A program made the position numbers and the translations under genes. Shown piece by piece: positions 1 to 23,326 of a DNA stretch of 41,572 nt (positions are counted from its first letter, which is position 1; each line of letters begins with the position of its first letter). The notes under the pieces were generated by a model, which did not search any database, was not told where the DNA came from, and was given only the letters and a program-made list of their open reading frames with translations. The DNA is from a virus. Location of the stretch: the IMG/VR virus record IMGVR_UViG_3300010379_000015, positions 1 through 41,572 of that record; one strand, given 5' to 3'.

Positions 1-2688
1 GAGGCTATGTACATCAGCATGTGCGGAACAGGCGTCGGCTTCTCTGTTGAACGTCAGTACGTGAGTCAGCTACCCATCATTGCAGAGAACTTCTATCCAA
101 CCGATACCATCATCAAAGTCAAGGATTCCAAGATTGGGTGGGCTAACTCCTTCCGCCAACTCATTGCCTTGCTCTATGGTGGTTCCATTCCCAAGTGGGA
201 TATATCCGCTGTTCGTCCCGCTGGTTCAATCCTAAAAACGTTTGGTGGACGTGCCTCTGGGCCTGAACCACTCGAACAACTCTTCCGCTTCACCGTCAAC
301 CTGTTCCGCAACGCGGCAGGTCGTAAACTGACCTCGATTGAATGCCATGACTTGATGTGCTTCGTGGCGGATATTGTGGTCACCGGAGGCGTTCGTCGCT
401 CGGCAATGATTTCGCTTTCCAACCTCTCTGATGACCGTATGCGGAATGCTAAAAACGGTCAATGGTGGATTGAGAATGACCAGCGTCGTCTGGCGAACAA
501 CTCCGTAGCTTACACGGAGAAGCCTGAGATGGGTATCTTCATGAAGGAGTGGTTCACTCTTTACGAATCCCGCTCCGGGGAACGCGGTATCTTCAATCGT
601 GAGGGAGCCCGTAAGCACGTTGCCAAGTTTGGTCGCCGTAAATGGGAAGGCATTGACTTTGGTGTGAACCCCTGTGTATCGAAGCGCACGATTGTCCACA
701 CAGCAGAAGGTGCAAAACAAGCACTTGATTTAATCGGTATTCCTTTTACAGCGGTTGTGGATGGAGAAGAGCATCAATCAACCGAGCAGGGGTTTTTTGT
801 TACAGGGGTTAAGCCCTTGTTTCGTATCTCCACTGATAAGGGTTATGAAGTAGAAGCAACAAGTAACCATAAAATTCTAGTCGTTGACCACCTATCACGC
901 AAAACGTTACGTACTACTTGGAAGACGGTGGCTGATATGCGGCAAGGGGATTTGGTGGTACTTAACAACCATCGCAATAGTTCCTTCAGTGGTACTGGTT
1001 CTTTTGAAGAGGGCTGGTTATTGGGTAGTTTGAAGGGAGACGGCAACATCCAAAAGAATGGAGTAGCCAATCTCGATTATTGGGGTGAGGGTCGGCATGA
1101 AATGGTCCGCGTCGCGGTTGACAGAGTCCATGCTACCGTAGGTGGTCGTTCTGACCTTCAAGGTTGTAATCAACCACAGTACAACCGCTCACGGGTGGGT
1201 TCGGTTAACTTAGGCGAATTGGCTTCTCAGTTTGGATTTTCGGCTGATAAGCAAGTGGGGTTAGCTGTTGAATGCTCTTCTTCTGATTTTCACAAGGGCT
1301 TCCTTCGTGGTTGGTATGACGCTGATGGTTCGGTTCAAGGGACTCAAGAAAAGGGCGTGAGTGTTCGGTTGTCTTCTAACGACTTACAAGGACTTCGGGC
1401 GGCTCAGCGTATGCTTTTACGGTTGGGTATTGTATCAACCATCTACCCTAATCGTCGGGACGCAGGTTACCACCCCCTTCCCGATGGAAAAGGGGGGCTT
1501 AAGGACTACATGTGTGAAGCCCAGCATGAGTTAGTTATTGCTAATGATAATCTGGTCGAGTTTGCTTCTACGGTAGGGTTTGAAGATACCATTAAGCAGA
1601 GTAAGTTAACCGGGGCGTTGGGTGCTTATGTACGCTCGTTGAACCAAGAGCGGTTTTTAGCTGAGGTTACATCTATTGAGTTCATCGGCGAGGAAGAGGT
1701 GTTGGATTGCACCATCCCCACAATTTCAGCGTTTGATGCCAACGGAATTTATGTTCACAACTGTGGTGAGATTCTTCTTCGTCCTAAGGGCTTCTGTAAC
1801 CTGACTGAGGTTGTTATCCGTCCGGACGACACCAAAGCCAGCATCAAGAGGAAGATTCGCTCTGCGACTATCCTCGGTACACTCCAGAGCACTCTCACTG
1901 ACTTCCGCTATCTTCGCAAGGAATGGCAGAAGAACGCAGAAGAAGAGCGTCTCCTTGGCGTGTCGTTCACCGGCATCATGGACAACAAGATGATGTCCTC
2001 AAACACCCCTGAATTGGCAAAGATGCTTGATGAATTCCGCGAATATGCCGTGGAAGTCAACAAGGAATGGGCTGAAAAGCTTGGTATTAACCAATCAGCG
2101 GCGGTCACATGCATCAAACCGTCAGGTACAGTAAGCCAGTTGGTCGATTCGTCTTCGGGTATTCACAGCCGGTTCGCTCGTTTCATTGAGCGTGCAGTTC
2201 GTGAAGACCGGAAGAATCCAATCGGTGCCTTCATGCGGAGTGTAGGAGTCAAGTGTGAGCCAGACGTTACAAAGCCGAACGACATGGACGTATTTTACTT
2301 CCCGTTGGAGTCCCCGGCTGATTCCGTCTGTCGCAATGACCTTACTGCAATCCAGCAGTTGGAATTGTACCTCACGTACAAGTTGCATTGGACTGAGCAT
2401 AACCCAAGCTGCACCATCTACGTTCGTGAGTCTGAGTGGCTCAAGGTGGCATCTTGGGTCTACGAGCACTTTGACGCAATCGGGGGAGTCAGTTTTCTTC
2501 CATTTTCAGACCACATTTACAAACAGGCTCCCTACACTGATGTCACTGAAGAAGCCTACAAAAAGCTAGTAATCGAGTCGCCATCATATATCGACTGGAC
2601 TGGTTTACCTTCTTTCGAGAAAGAAGACATGACTACGGCCATGAAGGAACTCGCGTGTACGGGAAACACGTGTGAATTAGTCTTGTAG
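1..2688 (+). CDS. nrdJ: Adenosylcobalamin-dependent (class II) ribonucleotide reductase, left-truncated, intein-containing
   Basis: Reduces ribonucleotides to deoxyribonucleotides for phage DNA synthesis. The frame is open to the window edge, so the N-terminus is missing; residues below are counted from the ATG at 7. The class II signature NPCGE is present but split: NP (221-222) precedes an intein and CGE (586-588) follows it. After intein removal C586 is the expected thiyl-radical cysteine and E588 the catalytic glutamate. A GFSVE segment lies near the left edge and a PSGTVS motif lies downstream of the intein. The C-terminus ends in CTGNTC (884-889), matching the redox-active cysteine pair at the end of monomeric Lactobacillus-type RTPR. 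No NrdB-like gene is visible here. Family assignment is firm; the monomeric subclass is inferred from the tail. Confidence 0.93.
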   Translation, partial: EAMYISMCGTGVGFSVERQYVSQLPIIAENFYPTDTIIKVKDSKIGWANSFRQLIALLYGGSIPKWDISAVRPAGSILKTFGGRASGPEPLEQLFRFTVNLFRNAAGRKLTSIECHDLMCFVADIVVTGGVRRSAMISLSNLSDDRMRNAKNGQWWIENDQRRLANNSVAYTEKPEMGIFMKEWFTLYESRSGERGIFNREGARKHVAKFGRRKWEGIDFGVNPCVSKRTIVHTAEGAKQALDLIGIPFTAVVDGEEHQSTEQGFFVTGVKPLFRISTDKGYEVEATSNHKILVVDHLSRKTLRTTWKTVADMRQGDLVVLNNHRNSSFSGTGSFEEGWLLGSLKGDGNIQKNGVANLDYWGEGRHEMVRVAVDRVHATVGGRSDLQGCNQPQYNRSRVGSVNLGELASQFGFSADKQVGLAVECSSSDFHKGFLRGWYDADGSVQGTQEKGVSVRLSSNDLQGLRAAQRMLLRLGIVSTIYPNRRDAGYHPLPDGKGGLKDYMCEAQHELVIANDNLVEFASTVGFEDTIKQSKLTGALGAYVRSLNQERFLAEVTSIEFIGEEEVLDCTIPTISAFDANGIYVHNCGEILLRPKGFCNLTEVVIRPDDTKASIKRKIRSATILGTLQSTLTDFRYLRKEWQKNAEEERLLGVSFTGIMDNKMMSSNTPELAKMLDEFREYAVEVNKEWAEKLGINQSAAVTCIKPSGTVSQLVDSSSGIHSRFARFIERAVREDRKNPIGAFMRSVGVKCEPDVTKPNDMDVFYFPLESPADSVCRNDLTAIQQLELYLTYKLHWTEHNPSCTIYVRESEWLKVASWVYEHFDAIGGVSFLPFSDHIYKQAPYTDVTEEAYKKLVIESPSYIDWTGLPSFEKEDMTTAMKELACTGNTCELVL
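673..1761 (+). other. Intein with LAGLIDADG homing endonuclease, inside the RNR radical-cysteine motif
   Basis: A 363-residue insertion (residues 223-585) in the RNR reading frame. It begins with Cys223 (CVSKRTIVHT), carries a block B TxxH motif (T285-H288) and ends in VHN before extein Cys586, the canonical Cys1 / His-Asn / Cys+1 set for protein splicing. Two endonuclease motifs, LLGSLKGDG (about 338-346) and LRGWYDADG (about 434-442), mark a two-motif LAGLIDADG nuclease of full-length type. All splicing residues are visible, so it should be active. The insertion point is directly before the catalytic cysteine, so unspliced enzyme would be inactive. Confidence 0.92.
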
Positions 2689-5984: not shown

Positions 5985-6011
5985 GCGAAAGCGAATTCGA
6001 GAGTCAGCCAG

Positions 6012-6043
6012 AGGCCAACCGAAAGGTTGGCCTTTCGTGTTTT
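6012..6043 (+). terminator. Rho-independent terminator with GAAA tetraloop
   Basis: AGGCCAACC (6012-6020), GAAA, GGTTGGCCT (6025-6033), then TTCGTGTTTT. It separates the membrane-peptide gene from the tRNA array. Confidence 0.9.
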
Positions 6044-6057
6044 GGTAGTAAATATGT

Positions 6058-6135
6058 GCTCCGGTGGTGTGAGTGGTCTATACCGCCTCTCTTACAAGGA
6101 GGATTTCACTGGTTCGAATCCAGTCTGGAGCACCA
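6058..6135 (+). tRNA. tRNA-Val(TAC)
   Basis: Acceptor GCTCCGG/CTGGAGC, A73, encoded CCA. The anticodon loop CTTACAA gives TAC; T-arm ACTGG/CCAGT. There is one extra base between D-arm and anticodon stem. Confidence 0.85.
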
Positions 6136-6141
6136 AGTTTT

Positions 6142-6217
6142 GCGGGGGTAGCTCAATGGTAGAGCACATTCTTGCCAAGAATGAGGTTTGCGAGTTCAAA
6201 TCTCGTCTCCCGCTCCA
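6142..6217 (+). tRNA. tRNA-Gly(GCC)
   Basis: Acceptor GCGGGGG/CTCCCGC, T73, encoded CCA. Anticodon stem CATTC/GAATG with loop TTGCCAA. Only 6 nt separate it from the preceding tRNA. Confidence 0.93.
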
Positions 6218-6219
6218 GT

Positions 6220-6762
6220 TTAGGCATATCGAGATAGCCCTCGGGATTGTCTCCCATAACCTTTATTTCGTCCACCAAACGTAGTTGTTTGACTATTACA
6301 GTTGGGGCACAGCAAACGTAAGTTGGAGGGGCGGTTATTGCCAGCATCCCCATCAACGTGGTCAACGACGAGAGTAAGTGGGTTATCACACCAAGTATTT
6401 TGCATGGTGCATTTGGCACAGAGGTTACCCTTGATTTTTATGAGAGCTTTACGGATTGAACTTCGTTCAGTAAGGTTCCCTTGGAGGAATTTTTCCATCA
6501 TCTGAACATGTAGGGAACGGTTTTCTTTTTGTGGTTTCTTTTTGTGTTCCCTTTTAAGGTTGGTGTAGGTAGCTGAGCAGGAGTGAGAACAGAAAATGTA
6601 ATCGTGACGTTTTTCATATGGGAGCGCACCTCCACATTGTTTGCACTTCTTCGGATTGAGTTTGTATTTGGTTTCATTTTTTACGATACGTCCGGTGTTA
6701 CTACAAGCCAAAGAGCAGTATTGGTAAGTAGCAGGGCGTGAACAAACAAGACAAGAGTTCAT
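6220..6762 (-). CDS. HNH homing endonuclease with zinc-finger repeats
   Basis: 180 aa, opposite in strand to the tRNAs it lies between. The N-terminal half has CLVC, CKQC and FCSHSCS zinc-binding elements. The C-terminal HNH nuclease reads CAKC, then VVDHVDGDAGNNRPSNLRLLC, with DHVDG as catalytic His, NNRPSNLR as central Asn and CPNC as zinc knuckle. The stop is 2 bp from the 3' end of tRNA-Gly. No Shine-Dalgarno sequence precedes the ATG, but a CTCCTT/AAGGAG hairpin (6802-6817) lies 40 nt upstream of it on the coding strand. It is a free-standing homing gene of the tRNA array. Confidence 0.9.
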   Translation of the reverse strand: MNSCLVCSRPATYQYCSLACSNTGRIVKNETKYKLNPKKCKQCGGALPYEKRHDYIFCSHSCSATYTNLKREHKKKPQKENRSLHVQMMEKFLQGNLTERSSIRKALIKIKGNLCAKCTMQNTWCDNPLTLVVDHVDGDAGNNRPSNLRLLCPNCNSQTTTFGGRNKGYGRQSRGLSRYA

Positions 6763-6886
6763 TATGTATGCGAAGAGAGTGACTTGAATTTAACCCTCTT
6801 CCTCCTTACATAAGGAGCAGGAAGTCGAAAGAGGATGTTCGCTCAACTTAGGTTGATGTGATTAGGTTCTTTGAAATTTTAATTGT

Positions 6887-6960
6887 GGGCTCGTCGTTCA
6901 GCGGGAGGACTACACGCTTGCACCGTGCCAACGAGAGTTCGAATCTCTCCGGGTCCACCA
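6887..6960 (+). tRNA. tRNA-Ala(TGC)
   Basis: Acceptor GGGCTCG/CGGGTCC with the alanine identity pair G3:U70, A73 and encoded CCA. Loop CTTGCAC gives TGC; T-arm GAGAG/CTCTC. It is unrelated in sequence to the second tRNA-Ala(TGC) at 10606. Confidence 0.85.
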
Positions 6961-6968
6961 ATTTTAGT

Positions 6969-7343
6969 TTGCACTGAACTGGACAATCGCGACGTGATGC
7001 AATGTCACTTCGAGGAAGTTCGGGGCTCCACAGGACAGTGTGTAGGGTAACACCCTAGCGTAAGGTGTGGTTGGAAGCGTTGTCGCAAGACTTCCCAACC
7101 AATTTCACCCTTACGACAATCAGAGCAACAGAGACGAGCCGGCCAGCCAGAACATCGAAGCCGGGTGAAACGGGCAATCTTCACATGGAGCAACCTCAAA
7201 TAGGTCGTGAGCCTTGTGTCCGAGGCGCTACCAAGCGACGGGTTGGGGGCTAGAACGTTATGGTGACATAACGTCGAGACGAATGACTGTACAAGAGGGG
7301 GTAACCCTCTGGACAAAACCCCGGCTATAGGGGTTCAATGCAA
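6969..7343 (+). ncRNA. rnpB: RNase P RNA (bacterial type A)
   Basis: Catalytic RNA that removes 5' leaders from pre-tRNAs. About 375 nt, close to E. coli M1 RNA (377 nt). Visible landmarks in order: P1 5' strand TTGCACTGAAC (6969-6979) pairs with GTTCAATGCAA (7333-7343), one C-A mismatch; GAGGAAGTTCGGGGCTCC (7012-7029) matches the E. coli conserved block at the same length; CAGAGCAACAGAGACGAGCC (7121-7140); GGGTGAAA near 7163; GGAGCAAC and CAAATAGG (about 7187-7204); GACGAATGACTGT near 7280; AACCCCGGCTATAGG near 7318-7331. P4 covaries (CGGGG/CCCCG here, CCGGG/CCCGG in E. coli). A GTGA-capped hairpin precedes the GAATGAC block and a P19-like hairpin follows it. The P13/P14 region looks absent. 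Transcribed with the tRNAs; the protein subunit is not in the window and may be the host's. Confidence 0.93.
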
Positions 7344-7351
7344 TGATTTAT

Positions 7352-7425
7352 GAGGCTGTTGACGGTACTGGTTCTGTCCTCGCCCTTTCAAGGCGATTAT
7401 GCGGGTTCGATTCCCGTCAGCCTTA
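7352..7425 (+). tRNA. tRNA-Glu(TTC)
   Basis: Acceptor GAGGCTG/CAGCCTT, A73. Anticodon stem TCGCC/GGCGA with loop CTTTCAA. No CCA is encoded; the next tRNA starts 2 nt downstream. Confidence 0.88.
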
Positions 7426-7426
7426 C

Positions 7427-7500
7427 GCGGGATTGGTATATTGCTTGTGCCTTGGCCTTCCAAGCCGAAGAAAGGGGTTGAATTCCCCTATCCCGCTCCA
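7427..7500 (+). tRNA. tRNA-Gly(TCC)
   Basis: Acceptor GCGGGAT/ATCCCGC, T73, encoded CCA. Anticodon stem TTGGC/GCCGA with loop CTTCCAA; T-loop TTGAATT. Confidence 0.9.
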
Positions 7501-7603
7501 AGTTTTGTTGTAAGTGCCGTATTGAACACAGAGGCATTCGAGATGAGCGGTTTCTTCAAGTAGCAAACGAGTATTCAGGTTGTTTGTGGGGTAAAGTGTT
7601 TAA

Positions 7604-7675
7604 CGCCCGGTAGCAAAGTGGTAATGCGACGACCTGCAAAGTCGTTCATCGCCGGTTCGATTCCGGCTCGGGCGT
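7604..7675 (+). tRNA. tRNA-Cys(GCA)
   Basis: Acceptor CGCCCGG/TCGGGCG, discriminator U73 as expected for cysteine, loop CTGCAAA, T-arm GCCGG/CCGGC. No complete CCA is encoded (CCG) and the next tRNA starts 2 nt later. The 103 bases before this gene (7501-7603) show no gene. Confidence 0.87.
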
Positions 7676-7677
7676 CC

Positions 7678-7752
7678 GGGGCTATAGCTCAGAGGGAGAG
7701 CGGTTCGCTGGCAGCGAACAGGTCGGGATTTCAAAATTCCCTAGCTCCACCA
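7678..7752 (+). tRNA. tRNA-Ala(GGC)
   Basis: Acceptor GGGGCTA/TAGCTCC with G3:U70, encoded CCA; anticodon loop CTGGCAG. The body is identical to the tRNA at 10606 outside the anticodon arm, including a T-T mismatch closing the T-loop. Confidence 0.9.
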
Positions 7753-7755
7753 AAT

Positions 7756-7902
7756 TTTGATGAAGCAGTAATGCGAACCGGGCATGGGTGATGCATCACC
7801 AGCAGACCCGCTACTCAGCCGCTGTAACGAAGCACGGCTTTCATCAAGAACGACACTGCATGTCGTTAAATGGCAGCGTAAAGGGCACGACACGTCCACC
7901 AA
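7756..7902 (+). ncRNA. Unassigned structured RNA between tRNA-Ala and tRNA-Asp
   Basis: Not a tRNA and not coding. A closing helix, TTGATGAAGC with GCTTTCATCAA about 80 nt later, holds GGTGA/TCACC inside CGGG/CCCG, and GCCG/CGGC. An AACGAC/GTCGTT hairpin follows, and the segment ends in GTCCACCA 6 nt before tRNA-Asp. Function unknown; the folds are by eye. Confidence 0.4.
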
Positions 7903-7908
7903 GTTTTT

Positions 7909-7983
7909 GGAGATGTATCATAATGGTAATGAACCTCACTGTCGATGAGGGCTATACGGGTTCAACTCCCGCCGTCTCCGCCA
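7909..7983 (+). tRNA. tRNA-Asp(GTC)
   Basis: Acceptor GGAGATG/CGTCTCC, G73 as expected for aspartate, encoded CCA. Anticodon stem CCTCA/TGAGG with loop CTGTCGA. Confidence 0.92.
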
Positions 7984-7997
7984 GTTTCTCGACTATT

Positions 7998-8038
7998 GAA
8001 CCTTTAGTAGGTACTAAATTCAGACCAACTAAAGGTTC
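7998..8038 (+). promoter_or_regulatory. Leader hairpin of the gene at 8041, with a competing fold
   Basis: An 11-bp perfect stem, GAACCTTTAGT (7998-8008) with ACTAAAGGTTC (8028-8038), buries the AAAGG ribosome-binding site two bases before the ATG. The loop holds a second ACTAAA (8013-8018) that can pair with TTTAGT (8003-8008) of the same left arm, which would free the site. Confidence 0.65.
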
Positions 8039-8040
8039 AA

Positions 8041-8667
8041 ATGGAAAAGAAACTGGAAGCACAAAGACTAGCAATTGGGTTGCGTAGTCAAGGAAAGTCA
8101 GTTAAGGCTATCGCAAAGGAGTTGAGTGTCTCTCCCGGCTCTATTAGTATTTGGGTTCGCGGGGTTCAGTTGACCACGGAGCAGCGCGGGATATTAAGGA
8201 GTCAACCTCGTCAACGCACGCTGTCCTCCAAGAAGATGAGCCGCATGGGGAATGAATCAAAATACCATAAGCGGGTTGCACACGAGGAGTTGACGAGAGA
8301 GCGGAAAGCACGAATAGCAGAAGCTGCGATTCTTTTTAGGTTGGCGTTGCATGATTTGATTGCCTACAGTTCGCCTTTTGATGGTGACAAGACTGATTGG
8401 CTTGTTGAAAATTCTCAAGGGCATTTGTTGAAGGTCCAAGTACGGTGGACAAAAGGTAATAAGCAAGGACTACCGAATATACCTCTGCGGTGTTCTGATG
8501 GTAGAAAGCACCAAAGGCGGTACAATGACAATGAATTGGATTTCATGGTCGGATATGACTTGTACACGGACACGGCGTACGTAATGAGTCGGGATGAGTT
8601 GAAGGGATACAAAGCTGCCATCTCTATCCAAGAGGAATTTGCGGAGGCTTGGGGTAAATTACAATGA
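8041..8667 (+). CDS. HTH plus PD-(D/E)XK homing endonuclease
   Basis: 208 aa. An N-terminal resolvase-like helix-turn-helix (KSVKAIAKELSVSPGSISIW, about 19-38) is followed by a basic linker and a nuclease core with KTDWLVE, then LLKVQVRW (the D...QVK/R pattern) and NELDFMVGYDLYTDTAYVM. This matches the PD-(D/E)XK homing family related to cyanobacterial I-Ssp6803I. A second member is at 12063 and shares the layout but little sequence. It starts 57 bp after tRNA-Asp, behind a ribosome-binding-site hairpin, and its stop overlaps the next start (ATGA). Confidence 0.8.
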   Translation: MEKKLEAQRLAIGLRSQGKSVKAIAKELSVSPGSISIWVRGVQLTTEQRGILRSQPRQRTLSSKKMSRMGNESKYHKRVAHEELTRERKARIAEAAILFRLALHDLIAYSSPFDGDKTDWLVENSQGHLLKVQVRWTKGNKQGLPNIPLRCSDGRKHQRRYNDNELDFMVGYDLYTDTAYVMSRDELKGYKAAISIQEEFAEAWGKLQ

Positions 8668-8885
8668 AAATTCATTTCGATGCAGACATGAAGAGTGTAC
8701 ACACCCGACTGGCCGGTACCCACATGCGGAAGAGGGGACTTGAGAATCTCCGCCGTCTGCTACAGGATGAACCCCCTCTTCCTTATCCTAAGCATGAGTA
8801 CGTGCAAGAGGTTGGTTGTGGTATCGGTTTTTGTGAAGTATGCCATAGCGATGACATCAATGATGGCAATCATTTACACCCGTAG
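8664..8885 (+). CDS. Small hypothetical protein, 73 aa, ending inside tRNA-Val
   Basis: Coupled to the endonuclease by an ATGA overlap. The protein is His/Cys-containing, with CGIGFCEVCHSDD near the end, a possible metal site. Its last codons and TAG stop lie in the first 10 nt of tRNA-Val(GAC), so the tRNA sequence supplies the stop. No family recognised; it may be a passenger of the homing cassette. Confidence 0.55.
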   Translation: MKIHFDADMKSVHTRLAGTHMRKRGLENLRRLLQDEPPLPYPKHEYVQEVGCGIGFCEVCHSDDINDGNHLHP

Positions 8886-8950
8886 CTCAGTGATAGAGCG
8901 TCTCCTTGACGTGGAGAGGGTCGGGGGTTTAAATCCCTCCGGGTGTACCA
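8876..8950 (+). tRNA. tRNA-Val(GAC)
   Basis: Acceptor ACACCCG/CGGGTGT, A73, encoded CCA. Anticodon stem TCTCC/GGAGA with loop TTGACGT. Confidence 0.9.
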
Positions 8951-8964
8951 AGTTTGTTGAATCG

Positions 8965-9035
8965 GGGCACGTCGTCTAGGGGTCTAGGACGCCCCTCATC
9001 CGAGGGGAAACGTGAGTTCGAATCTGCCGTGTCCA
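8965..9035 (+). tRNA. Degenerate tRNA-like gene (in register, anticodon TCC)
   Basis: Acceptor GGGCACG/CGTGTCC and a Glu/Asp-type D-arm (GTCT...AGGAC) are intact. The anticodon arm instead forms a 6-bp CCCCTC/GAGGGG stem with a 4-nt loop. In standard register the loop is CATCCGA, lacking U33. The T-stem has two mismatches and no CCA is encoded. It is probably a decaying tRNA; its identity is uncertain. Confidence 0.45.
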
Positions 9036-9056
9036 CACGACGGTTCAACAGATGCA

Positions 9057-9111
9057 GGGAGCGGAGAGGATTTGTTCTCGTTCGTGCGAAGTACGTAGAA
9101 TCGCCGCTCCC
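9057..9111 (+). other. Compact structured element between tRNAs
   Basis: GGGAGCGG (9057-9064) pairs perfectly with CCGCTCCC (9104-9111), enclosing GAGA/TCTC and TTCG/CGAA hairpins. At 55 nt it is too short for a tRNA and has no T-loop motif. Confidence 0.35.
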
Positions 9112-9120
9112 AAAAGTTTT

Positions 9121-9196
9121 GGGGCTAGGGACTGCCGGGGGTGGTCGTCTCATTCGCAATGAGAATAACAGCGGGGTTCAAGCCCCCGTGGCTCCA
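9121..9196 (+). tRNA. tRNA-Ala(CGC)
   Basis: Acceptor GGGGCTA/TGGCTCC with G3:U70, A73. Anticodon stem TCTCA/TGAGA with loop TTCGCAA; T-arm CGGGG/CCCCG. CCA is not encoded (CAT). Confidence 0.87.
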
Positions 9197-9205
9197 CATT
9201 CGTGA

Positions 9206-9235
9206 CTATCAGTATCTAAGTAGGGGTACTGATAG
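9206..9235 (+). promoter_or_regulatory. Leader hairpin of the GIY-YIG gene at 9240
   Basis: CTATCAGTA (9206-9214) pairs with TACTGATAG (9227-9235). The loop TCTAAGTAGGGG contains the AGGGG ribosome-binding site. Confidence 0.6.
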
Positions 9236-9239
9236 GTTC

Positions 9240-9851
9240 ATGACATACTACACGGTTTACAAAACCGTTAACCTGCTCAACGGTAAGTTCTACTTTGGGG
9301 TTCACAAAACGAAAGCCCCTGATGATGCATACCTTGGTTCCGGTACATACATCAAACGAGCCGTTGCCAAATATGGGGAACAAAACTTCCGCAAGGAAGT
9401 CCTGTTCATCTACCTCGATGCTGAGTCAGCATTTGGCAAAGAGGATGAGTTGATTCAATGCTGGCGAGGTCATCCTCTTTGTATGAATTTGAGGAAAGGT
9501 GGTTCAGGCGGGTTTGATTGGATTAACAAGTCGGTGGACATGGTGGCGAGAAACACAAAAGTGTCTCAAAAGCGGCTTGAGAAATTGAAGAGCAACCCTG
9601 AGTTTCGAGAACGATACAACAAGGCTATGCACAGGGATAGAAAAGGGAAGGGGTTTAACGGTGAGCCCTGTGACCATCGTGGTAGAACCCGGCCAGCAAC
9701 GACCCGAGAAAGGATGTCCAATAGTGCAAAGGGAGAGAGAAACTCTCAATTCGGAACCTGTTGGATTGTTAACTTGCGAGGGAGTAGTAAGAAGGTATCT
9801 AAACAAGAGTTGGATACGTGGTTATCACGAGGATGGACACGAGGAAGATGA
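9240..9851 (+). CDS. GIY-YIG homing endonuclease (divergent subgroup)
   Basis: 203 aa; the start at 9240 follows the hairpin leader. The nuclease domain has YKTVNLLNGKFYFGVHKT in place of the classical GIY/YIG pair, then GSGTYIKRAVAKYGEQNF and EDELIQ with the catalytic glutamate. The C-terminal half is basic, with helices resembling NUMOD3 (RPATTRERMSNSAKGERNS). It lies between tRNA-Ala(CGC) and an opposing HNH gene, and its stop overlaps the next ATG (ATGA). Confidence 0.85.
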   Translation: MTYYTVYKTVNLLNGKFYFGVHKTKAPDDAYLGSGTYIKRAVAKYGEQNFRKEVLFIYLDAESAFGKEDELIQCWRGHPLCMNLRKGGSGGFDWINKSVDMVARNTKVSQKRLEKLKSNPEFRERYNKAMHRDRKGKGFNGEPCDHRGRTRPATTRERMSNSAKGERNSQFGTCWIVNLRGSSKKVSKQELDTWLSRGWTRGR

Positions 9852-10024
9852 AGATTAACACGGTTTGTGCTACAGATGTTTGTGTGGGTGAGTGTATCTG
9901 CAAACCGTGGACTGAATGTTTGGAAGAATCGGACACTTGTTGGAAGTGCTTAGAGTGTGGGGTCTCGCTGAGTGATGAAGATGACCCGGATTTGTGTTAC
10001 AAGTGTAAGTTGTTATTCCCATAG
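9848..10024 (+). CDS. Cys-rich small protein, 58 aa
   Basis: The start at 9848 has GAGGAAG immediately upstream and overlaps the preceding stop. Eleven cysteines in CxxxC and CxxC pairs (VCATDVCVGECIC, CWKCLECG, CYKC) suggest a zinc-binding fold. The 3' end overlaps the convergent HNH gene by 28 bp. No family recognised. Confidence 0.6.
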   Translation: MKINTVCATDVCVGECICKPWTECLEESDTCWKCLECGVSLSDEDDPDLCYKCKLLFP

Positions 10025-10563
10025 ATGCCATCATGTGCTAAGAAGTGTTCTTCTTCATGACATCTTGGACAGAGAATTTCAAGATTTTCAGGCTTACCGT
10101 TTTTTCGATTGCGGTCGATATGGTGAACTCTGAGAACAGGGATGTAGCGGTCATACCCACAACGGTTACATCTATGTGGGTGGTGCTCGAAGGCAGTCTT
10201 TCGGTAGGTGTATAGGTCTCCTCCTGTCCCGTAGTGGTCAGGGCGAATTTTAGGGCAATTACCCTGTAGGCTTTGAGAGGTTTCTTTACATTTACGAGAG
10301 CAGAAGAAAACCTGATGGCGACTGTTTTTTAAATCGCTGATAGCTCTTGTGGTTTTTGTCCCACAGTTGTAACAGGCAATCTCTACTCTACTTTTTTTGT
10401 GCTTCATAGCGGATGCACATTTACGAGAGCAGCATAGTTGGGCGTCCAGCCGGTGTTTGGGTACGAAGAACTCTGAGTTACATTGGCTACAGAGTTTGGA
10501 ATACAGGTTTCTAGGTTTCCCATCATACTCTGTGGAGACGATGGCTGTTGCAATGTGAGTCAT
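9997..10563 (-). CDS. HNH homing endonuclease with zinc fingers
   Basis: 188 aa from the ATG at 10563, chosen because a ribosome-binding-site hairpin lies directly upstream. The N-terminal part has repeated Cys pairs (CSQC, CCSRKC, CYNC, FCSRKC). The C-terminal HNH reads CNRCGYD, then VLRVHHIDRNRKNGKPENLEIL with HHID catalytic and N in PENL, then CPRCHEEEH. It resembles the HNH at 6220 in architecture, on the minus strand between tRNA genes. Confidence 0.9.
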   Translation of the reverse strand: MTHIATAIVSTEYDGKPRNLYSKLCSQCNSEFFVPKHRLDAQLCCSRKCASAMKHKKSRVEIACYNCGTKTTRAISDLKNSRHQVFFCSRKCKETSQSLQGNCPKIRPDHYGTGGDLYTYRKTAFEHHPHRCNRCGYDRYIPVLRVHHIDRNRKNGKPENLEILCPRCHEEEHFLAHDGIYGNNNLHL

Positions 10564-10568
10564 TTTAA

Positions 10569-10592
10569 ATCCACCTTTAACTAGGGGTGGAT
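10569..10592 (-). promoter_or_regulatory. Leader hairpin of the HNH gene ending at 10563
   Basis: On the minus strand ATCCACC pairs with GGTGGAT around CCTAGTTAAA. The AAAGG ribosome-binding site spans lo​op and 3' arm, about 6 nt from the ATG. Confidence 0.55.
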
Positions 10593-10605
10593 AGTTGAAA
10601 AGTTT

Positions 10606-10680
10606 GGGGCTATAGCTCAGAGGGAGAGCATCGCATTTGCAATGCGAGGGTCGGGATTTCAAAATTCCCTAGCTCCACCA
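10606..10680 (+). tRNA. tRNA-Ala(TGC), copy 2
   Basis: Acceptor GGGGCTA/TAGCTCC with G3:U70, encoded CCA. Anticodon stem TCGCA/TGCGA with loop TTTGCAA. It is identical to the 7678 tRNA except in and around the anticodon arm. Confidence 0.9.
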
Positions 10681-10682
10681 AA

Positions 10683-10889
10683 TTTAACTGCGGTGATTTA
10701 TAGGCAGCAATAACCTATACCCATGGTACCGAAAGGGAGAGTAGGGGTCACCAAGATAGCTCTAGCGAAAGTTGCTTCCCTAACCATGACCTTGGTGGGT
10801 GGCTAGTAGGGTGAAGACGGACGCAGTTAATAGTTTACGCCGAGTAAGGGAAATCCCGTGGCGGATAACCACGCCCCCTCGGCTCCAGT
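10683..10889 (+). ncRNA. Unassigned structured RNA region between tRNA-Ala and tRNA-Glu
   Basis: No credible gene. TTAACTGCG (from 10683) pairs perfectly with CGCAGTTAA (about 10819-10827), enclosing TATAGG/CCTATA and other hairpins. A second unit follows from about 10841, with GCCGAG/CTCGGC closing GGGAAATCCC and CGTGG/CCACG (7-nt loop), and it ends in TCCA like a tRNA 3' end. Function unknown. Confidence 0.4.
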
Positions 10890-10898
10890 TTGAAATGT

Positions 10899-10975
10899 GG
10901 CCCTGCCGTCTATTTGGCTTGGATACCTCACTCTCAATGAGGAGATAACGGGTTCGAAACCCGTCAGGGCTACCA
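10899..10975 (+). tRNA. tRNA-Glu(CTC)
   Basis: Acceptor GGCCCTG/CAGGGCT, A73, encoded CCA. Anticodon stem CCTCA/TGAGG with loop CTCTCAA. Confidence 0.92.
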
Positions 10976-10983
10976 AATTTTAA

Positions 10984-11059
10984 CGCCGAGTGGCCGAGGC
11001 GTACCAGGCGCGTCCTTGCAACCGACGAGACAAGAGTTAAATCCTCTTCTCGGCGTCCA
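10984..11059 (+). tRNA. tRNA-Cys(GCA), copy 2
   Basis: Acceptor CGCCGAG/CTCGGCG, U73, encoded CCA, T-arm AAGAG/CTCTT. Loop TTGCAAC gives GCA if a C31-C39 mismatch is accepted. U73 supports cysteine. Confidence 0.7.
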
Positions 11060-11079
11060 AGCAATCGGTGGTAAGTTTT

Positions 11080-11156
11080 GCGGGTTGAAGGTTCCAGTTG
11101 GATTCCATGGATAGCCGCTGGCGTCAGAGCGTAGTTAATTCTATGCACCCGCTCCA
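11080..11156 (+). tRNA. Degenerate tRNA-like gene
   Basis: 77 nt with six good acceptor pairs (GCGGGT/ACCCGC), U73 and CCA. A T-arm CGTAG/CTATG carries a 6-nt loop TTAATT, as if C56 were deleted. D and anticodon arms pair poorly; by register the anticodon could be AGC (Ala). Probably a tRNA relic. Confidence 0.35.
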
Positions 11157-11164
11157 AAGTTCAC

Positions 11165-11241
11165 GGCCCTGTCTTCACTAATGGTCAGGTAGCTGCCCTT
11201 TCAAGGCAGAAATACGGGTTCGAGTCCCGTCAGGGCTACCA
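11165..11241 (+). tRNA. tRNA-Glu(TTC), copy 2
   Basis: Acceptor GGCCCTG/CAGGGCT, A73, encoded CCA. Anticodon stem CTGCC/GGCAG with loop CTTTCAA. It shares its acceptor with tRNA-Glu(CTC) at 10899. Confidence 0.92.
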
Positions 11242-11250
11242 GTTATGTTC

Positions 11251-11286
11251 TGTATCAAAACCCCCGATTCCGGGGGTTTTGATACA
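11251..11286 (+). terminator. Perfect 16-bp hairpin, likely bidirectional terminator
   Basis: 11251-11266 pairs without mismatch to 11271-11286 around ATTC. The GC core CCCCCG/CGGGGG is flanked by AAAA on the left and TTTT on the right, the form of a bidirectional Rho-independent terminator, here in the middle of the tRNA array. Confidence 0.7.
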
Positions 11287-11305
11287 CAAAGTTGCAGCGG
11301 TGTTT

Positions 11306-11379
11306 GGATACGGTTACTTCTTGGTTCAATCCCAAGTCTTCCCACAATGCGGGGAGACTGCCCACTGGGGGCAATATCC
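11306..11379 (+). other. tRNA parts in permuted order (3' half before 5' half)
   Basis: GGATA (11306-11310), then a consensus T-arm CTTGG-TTCAATC-CCAAG (11320-11336), then TCTTCCC and A44 as an acceptor 3' strand. After a 6-nt linker comes GGGGAGA (11351-11357), which pairs with all seven bases of TCTTCCC (one G-U). A D-like arm GCCC/GGGC and TATCC (11375-11379), complementary to GGATA, follow. No normal 5' half lies upstream. It may be a permuted tRNA, a relic, or chance. Confidence 0.4.
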
Positions 11380-11407
11380 CGTTCCTCTTGTTCCCTGCAA
11401 TGCTATT

Positions 11408-11460
11408 TGGTCAATAGTCGGACGTTGACTCCGATGAAATCAACACCTTGCTATTGACTA
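11408..11460 (+). other. Stem element abutting tRNA-Val(CAC)
   Basis: A 10-bp stem (GTCAATAG/CTATTGAC plus two outer pairs) encloses a TCGGA/TCCGA hairpin. It ends one base before tRNA-Val. There is no gene between 11242 and 11461; this stem, the terminator and the permuted tRNA-like segment are all I see there. Confidence 0.35.
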
Positions 11461-11461
11461 T

Positions 11462-11536
11462 GCGCTCTTAACTCAGGGGTAGAGTGCTTCCTTCACACGG
11501 AAGATGCCGGGGGTTCAAATCCCTCAGGGCGCACCA
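11462..11536 (+). tRNA. tRNA-Val(CAC)
   Basis: Acceptor GCGCTCT/AGGGCGC, A73, encoded CCA. Anticodon stem CTTCC/GGAAG with loop TTCACAC. Confidence 0.92.
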
Positions 11537-11546
11537 ACACAGTTTC

Positions 11547-11622
11547 GGCGTTGCCGTCTATCGGTTTGGACCTCTGACTTTCACTCAGATGATGGAGGGT
11601 TCGACTCTCGTCAACGCCACCA
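11547..11622 (+). tRNA. tRNA-Glu(TTC), copy 3
   Basis: Acceptor GGCGTTG/CAACGCC, A73, encoded CCA. Anticodon stem TCTGA/TCAGA with loop CTTTCAC. One A-G mismatch in the T-stem. Confidence 0.88.
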
Positions 11623-11946
11623 AGTTGCAGCTTTCGGGTAGCTCCCGAGTGTAGTCTCCGGTTATGCATGGTCTCGCGAGAGTGCAAACCACATGGCAAC
11701 TACGGGGTGACTTTAAGCCACCGGGCCGCTACCAACTATGGTAAACTAGAAGTGTACCTGTACGGGGAGGTTGGCTTAAGGGCAGCTTTCCTTTAAAGAG
11801 TGAACCGTGTGGACGGGGGTACCTGATACCACAACTCGGCACATGGCCTGAAGTCAGATAGAGTCGCGACCGTCTGGCTATCTAGGTTGCATCTGCCGGG
11901 TAGGGTTCTTTGGCGTAGCAGCACACCCGACAGGACAGATGTGTAA
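11623..11946 (+). ncRNA. Unassigned structured non-coding region, 324 nt
   Basis: No supportable gene. Visible folds: AGTTGC/GCAACT closing 11623-11701 with TCGGG/CCCGA and GGTT-TGCA/TGCA-AACC hairpins inside; TTAAGCCA/TGGCTTAA closing 11713-11779; CCGT/ACGG and GGTA/TACC hairpins; CATCTG/CAGATG with CGGGT/ACCCG closing 11890-11941, which ends 5 nt before tRNA-Gly. It fills exactly the space between two tRNAs and could be one excised RNA or several. Confidence 0.4.
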
Positions 11947-12023
11947 GCGGATGTAGTTCAGCCCGGTAGAACGCGACCTTCCCAAGGTCGATGTCGTGGG
12001 TTCAAATCCCACCATCCGCTCCA
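11947..12023 (+). tRNA. tRNA-Gly(CCC)
   Basis: Acceptor GCGGATG/CATCCGC, T73, encoded CCA. Anticodon stem CGACC/GGTCG with loop TTCCCAA. Confidence 0.92.
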
Positions 12024-16858: not shown

Positions 16859-18694
16859 ATGGCGATAAAAGTTTGTATCCTAAATCCAACAACCTCACTC
16901 ATTGACATCGTTGATGGTGCATCGGCTTTCGTTGGAATCAGCGCAGCCGGGAGTCCGGTTGTTTTGAATGCCAACGGTACGATTGACCCCAGCTTTATCT
17001 CCGCAATTACCGCAAACACCCTCACCGCTCTCGCTGCTACTTCACTCTCGGCTCAGAGTCTCGTAAATGTCTACTACGGAACGGTCGGAAGTGTCACTGC
17101 CATCTATGCTCGTCCGGCGAACGCCGCTCAAGCAGAGCAGTATGCGGCGACCGGATATGTCATAGCCGACGCCAGTCAGGGAGACACTGTGCAGGTCTAC
17201 ACCTCCGGTCTGGTTTCGATTCCCTACTTGGGTGACTCGGGGTTTGCTTCCACGGACACAGGAGCCCCGGTTTATCTGAGCCCTACCGACCCCGGCAATG
17301 TTGTCAAGACCGTCAGTAGTCCAAACTTGGTTCAACAGGTTGGTGTCGCCTACCAGATTAGCACCACCGTCAACGGCACAGTTCAATTTCAGTTCTCATC
17401 TTCCAGCTTGGGTGCGGTCAATATATCCCTTGCTGTCCCTTCTTGGCAGTCGGTATCGGGTTCCCCGGTTACAGGAGCGGGAACCTTCACCATTACTGAC
17501 AACACGCAGTCTGCCAACCGTGTGTTTGCAGGTCCGGCTACAGGGTCAGCAGCAGCCCCAACTTTCCGGGCTCTTGTAGTCGCTGACCTGCCCGTCTCCG
17601 CCGTTACTCCCGGAAGTTACACACTTGCCGACCTTACCATTGATGCGTACGGTAGAATCACAGCAGCCACAAACGGGGTTGCAGGTGACGTGACCCGCGT
17701 GGCCTTGGCCGCTCCCACACAGTTCTCAGTATCTGGTTCCCCAATAACCAGTTTTGGTACTTTGACTCTTGCATGGCAGAATCAATCCCCAAATACGTTT
17801 CTCGCCGGTCCTGCTACAGTATCCAGTCCACCGGGGGCGGCTCCTACGTTTAGAACTCTGGTCATTGCCGACCTCCCCGCTGGTGTAGGCACGGTTACCA
17901 GTGTGGGTCTCACGATGCCTTCGGAGTTTGGTGTAGCGAATTCCCCCATCACTAATTCTGGTACTTTCGTAGTGACCAAGGCGGCTCAACTCCCCAATTT
18001 GGTTTATGCAAGTCCGAGTGTAACGAGCCCACCAACAAGTCCGCCAACGAGTGTTCCAGTATTTCGTAGTCTCGTTCCAGAAGATTTACCACTGGCTACA
18101 ACATCTACGGTGGGTGCTGTTTCAGTAGACGGAACAACCATCATGGTTACAGGTGGTGGGGAGATTAGTGCGACTGGAATCCTCCCGCTTCTGGGAATTT
18201 ATGGGACAACCTCACCACCCAGTTCACCCCCCTCTACGATAGTTGCCAGCATAGACACCTTTGGAAATCTTGTTATTGATGGAGTCATGACTATAACAGG
18301 TGCCACCTCCGGTACATTTGTTAGAGCAGATGGAACAGGAGCGGCCAACCCACTTCCATACGCTGTCGATTCTGTCACTGGTATCACAGGTCAAACAGGC
18401 GCGTATACCTACACAGCCCCTGCGCTTCCGATTGGGCTTTACCGAATTACCAACTACGTGGTGGTCACTGCGGTCACATCTTCTCCTACTCTTGATGTCA
18501 CGCTCAACTACACAGATGATTATGGTGCTCAGACCAGCGAACCATACAACCAAACGGTCGGTCAGGGCACTTACCTGACCGGCACGGTGGTGTTCTACAA
18601 CGCTGTGGCATCCGCTATGCCTACTCTGGTGTGGGGCTTTATAGGTACTCTTACCTACACTATCGAGGCGATTGTTTTGGAGAGACTGGCCTAA
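16859..18694 (+). CDS. Repeat-built tail fibre or surface structural protein
   Basis: 611 aa, rich in Ser, Thr, Val and Pro and poor in Lys and Cys. An N-terminal domain of about 190 residues is followed by at least three copies of a module with (S/A)xSPITxxGTxxxx strands and a P(T/V)FRxLVxxDLP ending (PTFRALVVADLP, PTFRTLVIADLP, PVFRSLVPEDLP). The C-terminal domain holds ITGQTGAYTYTAPALPIG and a beta-rich end. Such repeats are typical of trimeric phage fibres and adhesins. Linkers with TSPPTSPPTS separate modules. Confidence 0.8.
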   Translation: MAIKVCILNPTTSLIDIVDGASAFVGISAAGSPVVLNANGTIDPSFISAITANTLTALAATSLSAQSLVNVYYGTVGSVTAIYARPANAAQAEQYAATGYVIADASQGDTVQVYTSGLVSIPYLGDSGFASTDTGAPVYLSPTDPGNVVKTVSSPNLVQQVGVAYQISTTVNGTVQFQFSSSSLGAVNISLAVPSWQSVSGSPVTGAGTFTITDNTQSANRVFAGPATGSAAAPTFRALVVADLPVSAVTPGSYTLADLTIDAYGRITAATNGVAGDVTRVALAAPTQFSVSGSPITSFGTLTLAWQNQSPNTFLAGPATVSSPPGAAPTFRTLVIADLPAGVGTVTSVGLTMPSEFGVANSPITNSGTFVVTKAAQLPNLVYASPSVTSPPTSPPTSVPVFRSLVPEDLPLATTSTVGAVSVDGTTIMVTGGGEISATGILPLLGIYGTTSPPSSPPSTIVASIDTFGNLVIDGVMTITGATSGTFVRADGTGAANPLPYAVDSVTGITGQTGAYTYTAPALPIGLYRITNYVVVTAVTSSPTLDVTLNYTDDYGAQTSEPYNQTVGQGTYLTGTVVFYNAVASAMPTLVWGFIGTLTYTIEAIVLERLA

Positions 18695-22789: not shown

Positions 22790-23326
22790 TCCACGACGAT
22801 GGATTTCCTCCAATAGTTCATCGTCGGTAAAGTTGTCCAGTGATTTCATTGTTCTCCTGTTCATCACTTGTTCCTCATGAGTTGCCCAACGGCAGTTACC
22901 CGGTTCATAGTTTTCATTCACTTTGATACGGTCTAGTGAATGCTCCGGCGATGGGCGAAGTCCCATGTCTTTGTAGAATTGGTTGAAGTTACCCCGCCAA
23001 GCATCGCATACGCTAATCCCCCTTCCACCATAGTTAGGGTACGCCGACTGGTTGGGGCAGTAGCATCTGTTCTTCATAGACTGCCACGCTTTGTATTCAG
23101 GGCTTGTACACAATCCATGTTTTGTGTGTTTTTTAGAACACAACTCCCTTTGTAAACAACCACAACTTTTAGTGGCACCCTTGGTTAATAGGTAGCCGAG
23201 GGTGATGGTTTCATTCCCGCACTCACACTTACATCTCCACACAGATTCTCGGCGCTTGGAGCCTGTTTTTTCAATTACAGTAAGGCGACCGAATACTCTA
23301 CCCTCAAGCTTTAATGGAACTCCCAT
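22775..23326 (-). CDS. HNH-like homing endonuclease with N-terminal zinc module
   Basis: 183 aa. N-terminal module GRVFGRLTVI...CKCECG...SCGC is also found at 15630 and 39600 and at the C-terminus of the GIY-YIG protein at 27342. The core has NRCYCP, YPNYGGRGISVCDAW, HSLDRIKVNENYEPGNCRW and QVMNRR, the usual composition of free-standing phage HNH-like genes. Divergent from the 227-aa gene at 23407. The start codon follows a hairpin that holds its AAGGAG site. Confidence 0.85.
   Translation of the reverse strand: MGVPLKLEGRVFGRLTVIEKTGSKRRESVWRCKCECGNETITLGYLLTKGATKSCGCLQRELCSKKHTKHGLCTSPEYKAWQSMKNRCYCPNQSAYPNYGGRGISVCDAWRGNFNQFYKDMGLRPSPEHSLDRIKVNENYEPGNCRWATHEEQVMNRRTMKSLDNFTDDELLEEIHRRGLRSF

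Follow-up and report, generated by a model that had tools for sequence, protein, structure and literature searches.

A complete class A RNase P RNA encoded within the tRNA arrays of large phages

RNase P RNA is among the very few RNAs common to nearly all cells. The bacterial class A form (rnpB or M1 RNA; RF00010) is the closest relative of the phage RNA described here, with which it shares five conserved regions, the helices P1–P12 and P15–P18, the bulged U of P4, the P6–L17 pseudoknot and the L15 GGU motif. Unlike the bacterial gene, the phage copies are encoded in tRNA arrays and come without an RnpA gene. The CPR bacteria are known to have diverged RNase P RNAs that have lost P13/P14 yet are recognisable, and losses of this type are not uncommon in bacteria (PMC8172020). 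In the same work, RNase P RNA was used as a check on cellular genomes, and megaphages were recognised by having only tRNAs and tmRNA (PMC8172020).

The tRNA-rich huge phages are similar to the phages considered here in having many tRNAs, a CCA-adding enzyme and translation factors, and RNase P is unmentioned in the main text of their description (Al-Shayeb et al., 2020; PMC7162821) as well as in jumbo-phage overviews. The Tunturiibacter jumbo phage Tunturi_5 encodes 43 tRNAs, a tRNA nucleotidyltransferase and an RNA ligase, with a RuvC–UvsX–exonuclease–SbcD order like that of the window, the whole 41,572-bp stretch of DNA analysed here (PP885688; PMC11924767). This phage is the best-studied relative, and its genome gave neither an RF00010 match nor the conserved region I pattern; therefore, not every tRNA-rich jumbo phage requires an RNase P RNA gene. 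The original prediction knew of no well-characterised phage RNase P RNA, and no earlier description was found in the literature searched, which excluded subscription papers and preprints, or in annotated phage records. A blastn comparison with 50,697 phage records, which more divergent copies could escape, revealed no isolated phage that carries the gene; what it matched were bacterial chromosomes misfiled as phages, metagenomic records lacking annotation, and tRNAs. For instance, AGRM01000002.1, filed as a phage, matches bacterial RNase P RNA and is a contig of Salmonella on which the gene is annotated; CAKLQF020000022.1 and CAKLQH020000044.1, also filed as phages, match bacterial RNase P RNA and look like host DNA.

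The window is a linear fragment held as an IMG/VR virus record, with genes of phage type for ribonucleotide reductase (RNR), UvsX, SbcC and a helicase. When it was compared with 4227 Rfam families by cmscan, a single RNase P RNA was found at 6971–7345 (+), matching RF00010 with 141 bits (E 1.9e-43) against a curated gathering threshold of 100 bits. The alignment spans positions 1–367 of the 367-position model without truncation, and RF00010 (class A) is the best-scoring model of its clan. A bacterial type A RNA inside a phage tRNA array, with a near full-length covariance-model match, had been predicted from the letters alone at 6969–7343; the feature stands, between tRNA-Ala and tRNA-Glu, and its placement was 2 nt off. 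The stretch is thus confirmed as a genuine, complete class A RNase P RNA encoded by a phage, and it very probably functions as a ribozyme.

The covariance alignment contains all five conserved regions (GAGGAA; ACAGAGACGAG; GGGUGAAA; GGAGCAA..CAAAUAGG; ACAAAACC), in agreement with the predicted set of universally conserved blocks, and P1 closes the two ends across 375 nt with one mismatch. Conserved region I and the 5′ strand of P4, AGUUCGGGG, whose fourth base is the invariant bulged U, lie at 7012–7029 (+), as read from the sequence GAGGAAGTTCGGGGCTCC and the alignment, while the 3′ strand of P4 lies in conserved region V at 7319–7326 (+). The helix reads A-G-U-(U)-C-G-G-G-G / CCCCGGCU, paired at eight of eight positions and with the bulged U (E. 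coli U69) present. Compared with the class A consensus AAG(U)CCGGG / CCCGGCUU, both strands are changed at three positions, as in the compensatory change proposed for P4, and neither P1 nor P4 pairing is lost in the alignment or in the comparison with relatives. The 5′ strand of P6, GGAC at 7033–7036 (+), has its predicted partner GUCC in loop L17 at 7218–7221 (+), a complement at offset 206 counted from the first base of conserved region I; this pseudoknot is omitted from the Rfam structure line. The presence of P6 with P16/P17, and not P5.1/P15.1, is the class A architecture.

The RNA also has a canonical J5/15, a P18 with a GUGA loop, a P9 extended by a 49-nt insertion into a long hairpin, and the L15 GGU motif for the tRNA 3′ RCCA in CGGGUUGG. 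Its P4 pairs differ from the class A consensus, and it lacks P13/P14, which are usual but not obligatory: a block of 43 model positions has no residues in the cmscan alignment, and this block is also absent or nearly absent in the eight closest comparisons showing it. The CPR RNAs with the corresponding loss belong, in contrast, to cellular genomes (PMC8172020). The unconstrained MFE fold showed a modest gain over shuffles (z −1.97) and did not recover P4, as expected because the RNA is pseudoknotted; therefore, the fold is claimed on the strength of the covariance model and of a comparison among relatives, in which P4 and P6 covary across the window RNA and 25 other phage RNAs.

The array around the gene consists of 16 tRNAs (Val, Gly, Ala, Glu, Cys and Asp) found by ARAGORN at 6058–12023, all on the + strand, interspersed with homing endonuclease-like ORFs, and its tRNAs are the likely substrates. 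tRNA-Ala(UGC), with CCA encoded, lies at 6887–6960 (+) and ends 10 nt before the RNase P RNA; tRNA-Glu(UUC), at 7352–7426 (+), starts 6 nt after it. The latter is a low-scoring tRNA (32 bits) without encoded CCA that abuts a tRNA-Gly, no tRNA was found at the matching site of the related contigs G036 or G053, and a second tRNA-Glu(UUC) is located at 11165–11241. Nearly all tRNAs in the window and its relatives encode CCA. The window array decodes almost only GNN codons (Val, Ala, Asp, Glu and Gly) plus Cys; arrays of similar bias are present in G053 (143067–148070), G056 (74730–77770), G008 and G098, and other arrays of G053 hold Thr/Ile/Gln and Tyr/Leu/Pro/Met/Phe tRNAs. HNH and GIY-YIG-like homing endonuclease ORFs were recognised from their translations at 6220–6762 (−), 9141–9851 (+) and 9997–10662 (−) within the array, and many more are found elsewhere in the window. 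An intrinsic terminator-like hairpin, a consensus match only, lies just 5′ of the array at 6010–6035 (+); a promoter scan of the array gave sites not above shuffles, and no promoter is claimed.

Upstream of the array, the RNR gene at 7–2688 (+), which contains an intein-like insertion of ~360 residues, serves as a syntenic marker. Three related contigs from other metagenomes, G036, G053 and G056, are 35–86% identical to the window in RNR or 49–74% in UvsX; the nearest by RNR are G036 (88.9 kb, 86% in the C-terminal part) and G056 (100.7 kb, 71%), and the nearest by UvsX is G053 (231 kb, 74%). Their RNAs match RF00010 with 165 (G036), 209 (G056) and 180 bits (G053). The position of the gene is conserved: the window, G053 and G056 share the order RNR, tRNA Val/Gly/Ala, RNase P RNA, tRNA-Gly, helicase, ssb, exonuclease, RuvC, UvsX and SbcC, and G036 agrees with the window from RNR to RNase P RNA, its contig ending soon after. 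Portal and major head protein families were matched in G053, which provides virion hallmarks through a syntenic relative. Likewise, terminase and portal genes lie about 10 kb or less from the RNase P RNA of G046, and G002 encodes a baseplate wedge protein and G047 a tape measure protein; hallmark genes were verified in these four records, and the others are viral by the IMG/VR call. For finding terminases in these phages, PF03237 proved a poor probe.

The prevalence of the gene in IMG/VR was estimated from two motif scans. The first, for conserved region I in viral contigs, picked out 51 contigs, with RF00010 matches in 37 of the 50 that were searched together and in the one remaining contig, while the second, for conserved region IV, added seven contigs >50 kb with an RNase P RNA, one of them of 463 kb. 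Pattern-scan matches were retained as phage only if a covariance-model match was present, and G003, G006, G007, G013, G014, G021, G022, G024 and G034 were left out of the counts as likely host or prophage-edge contigs; among the matches set aside from the first scan were host-type RNAs on short contigs. This leaves 26 records taken as phage, with 25 distinct RNA sequences (G100 repeats G056), and judged from these sequences the RNase P RNA gene is widespread among large phages. In 23 of the 26 records, four or more tRNA genes are located in the same few kilobases as the RNase P RNA. The carrier arrays have 12–43 tRNAs that often nearly abut, as in G046, where 30 of 42 inter-tRNA gaps are ≤5 nt. 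In about half of the carriers, a tRNA starts within 10 nt of the 3′ end of the RNase P RNA, and in G002, G005, G017, G044 and G048, the RNA is flush with or ≤3 nt from the next tRNA.

Other features of translation were also noted in these records. A tRNA with a CUA anticodon (ARAGORN 'Pyl'), a possible amber suppressor, occurs in G036 at 17917 (c), G053 at 67323 (c) and G056 at 1463 (c); amber recoding, which these genes brought to mind, was rejected because TAG is still a common stop there. Apparently permuted tmRNA genes are present in G036 at 23021 (c) and G053 at 71374 (c), and a tmRNA lies inside the RNase P/tRNA array of G044 (L178, 8494–8842).

The 26 phage RNAs were compared for pairing in the catalytic helix P4 and in P6. 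Standard pairs fill 208 of 208 P4 cells, against 165.5 ± 4.0 (maximum 181) with the 3′ letters randomly dealt, and P6 is complementary in 24 of 26 RNAs, against 9.4 ± 2.2 (maximum 18), the random dealing ignoring relatedness and the same changes recurring in RNAs that do not group together. Several pair types are present at four of the eight P4 positions (position 2, A-U/G-C/C-G; 3, G-C/U-G; 5, C-G/G-C/A-U; and 8, G-C/A-U/U-A), and both the bulged U and the L15 GGU, which binds the tRNA 3′ CCA, are kept in all 26, whereas J5/15 is altered in half. Selection is therefore visible on the active-site fold, and it is strong evidence that the phage RNAs are maintained as working ribozymes. When bacterial contigs were scanned for the P4 type of the window, bifidobacteria and Elusimicrobia were found to hold other P4 variants; therefore, a P4 that departs from the consensus is not peculiar to phages. 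The RNAs of G101, G103 and G039 are very diverged, with reduced specificity domains and an intact P4.

The window RNA is 77%, 69% and 67% identical to those of G036, G008 and G053, respectively, and at most 59% to the sampled bacterial or host-type RNAs. A FastTree phylogeny of the MAFFT alignment (303 columns), weak in that it has few columns, few bacteria and some implausible bacterial placements, groups the window with G036, G053, G008 and G015. The GC-rich phages G001, G005, G017, G047 and G048 are separate, near bifidobacterial and other GC-rich host-type RNAs, and because they fall apart from the window group, the tree suggests at least two acquisitions of RNase P RNA by phages.

RnpA (PF00825), found in 10 of 14 control genomes, was detected neither in the window nor in 17 further phage records, which are possibly fragments, so that none of these 18 records encodes both parts of the holoenzyme. 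Since the records are not known to be complete genomes, RnpA may be encoded elsewhere in a phage; because no phage RnpA was found, host RnpA is most likely used. A CCA-adding enzyme family is present in G040 and G044, whose tRNAs are mostly without CCA, and in G025, while the CCA-poor G047, G017 and G001 showed none; it is as though phages tended to supply whichever maturation steps their tRNAs require. The best explanation, and one that we consider likely from comparative sequence evidence, is that the phage class A RNase P RNA works with host RnpA to mature the tRNAs of the phage itself. The RNA would be co-transcribed with the tRNA array, assemble with host RnpA and cleave the 5′ leaders of phage tRNA precursors late in infection, at a time when host RNase P RNA may not be renewed or may be swamped by the burst of phage tRNAs. 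Where tRNAs nearly abut, one RNase P cut would set the 5′ end of one tRNA and trim the preceding one. Because a tRNA begins 6 nt after the 3′ end of the window's RNase P RNA, and within 10 nt in about half of the carriers, the leader cut there, by phage or host RNase P, would also free the 3′ end of the ribozyme. A phage might need its own RNA if the host enzyme were limiting, inhibited or mismatched.

Without a phage RnpA, the RNA would compete for the host protein, and it might thus be a decoy that titrates host RnpA, or tRNA precursors, and shuts off host tRNA maturation instead of processing phage tRNAs. This is improbable, as P4 pairing, the bulged U, the L15 GGU and P6 are all kept, which a pure RnpA sponge does not need, and the genes are located in tRNA arrays. 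That the gene is a passenger of little or no benefit, swept into the arrays by tRNA-gathering recombination, agrees with its patchy distribution (as in Tunturi_5) and with the wealth of homing endonucleases in the arrays, but is very unlikely given that the pairing is strictly kept despite deep divergence and that synteny is retained over large protein distances. Slightly less credible still is a self-contained viral RNase P, working without protein or with an unrecognised phage protein: the lack of an RnpA family in the 18 records is compatible with it, but class A RNA alone requires high Mg2+ for activity in vitro, and the cell supplies host RnpA. Finally, an assembly chimera or host contamination joining a bacterial rnpB to a phage contig, which the original prediction had named as a possible flaw and which some matches of the same scan recall by looking like contigs of a host or a prophage edge that carry bacterial-type RNAs (G003, G006, G024, G007 and G013), is ruled out for practical purposes because the independent contigs G036, G053 and G056 keep the RNA at one and the same locus with a shared gene order, with the window RNA lying between phage tRNAs and homing endonucleases and being closer to the RNAs of related phages (67–77%) than to bacterial or host-type ones (≤59%).

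Maturation of phage tRNAs by the phage RNA with host RnpA hence remains the preferred reading. A wider scenario can be proposed only tentatively, in which large phages hold long-diverged RNase P RNA lineages of their own, acquired on two or more occasions. During infection, these RNAs would assume the 5′ maturation of tRNAs as a viral RNase P dedicated to phage tRNA arrays, which would release itself from the array transcript and possibly serve to evade control of tRNA processing by the host or its defences.

The phage RNase P RNA is a viral version of a known ribozyme and not a new kind of RNA. Nevertheless, its occurrence, intact and conserved in structure, in more than 20 large phage records breaks the criterion by which cellular genomes have been recognised (PMC8172020). 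An RNA enzyme usually taken as a mark of cellular life also belongs to viral genomes, and a ribozyme is added to the translation equipment of phages. The phage RNAs offer natural variants of P4 and the specificity domain for ribozyme studies, and the question of whether phages run their own tRNA maturation is made testable.
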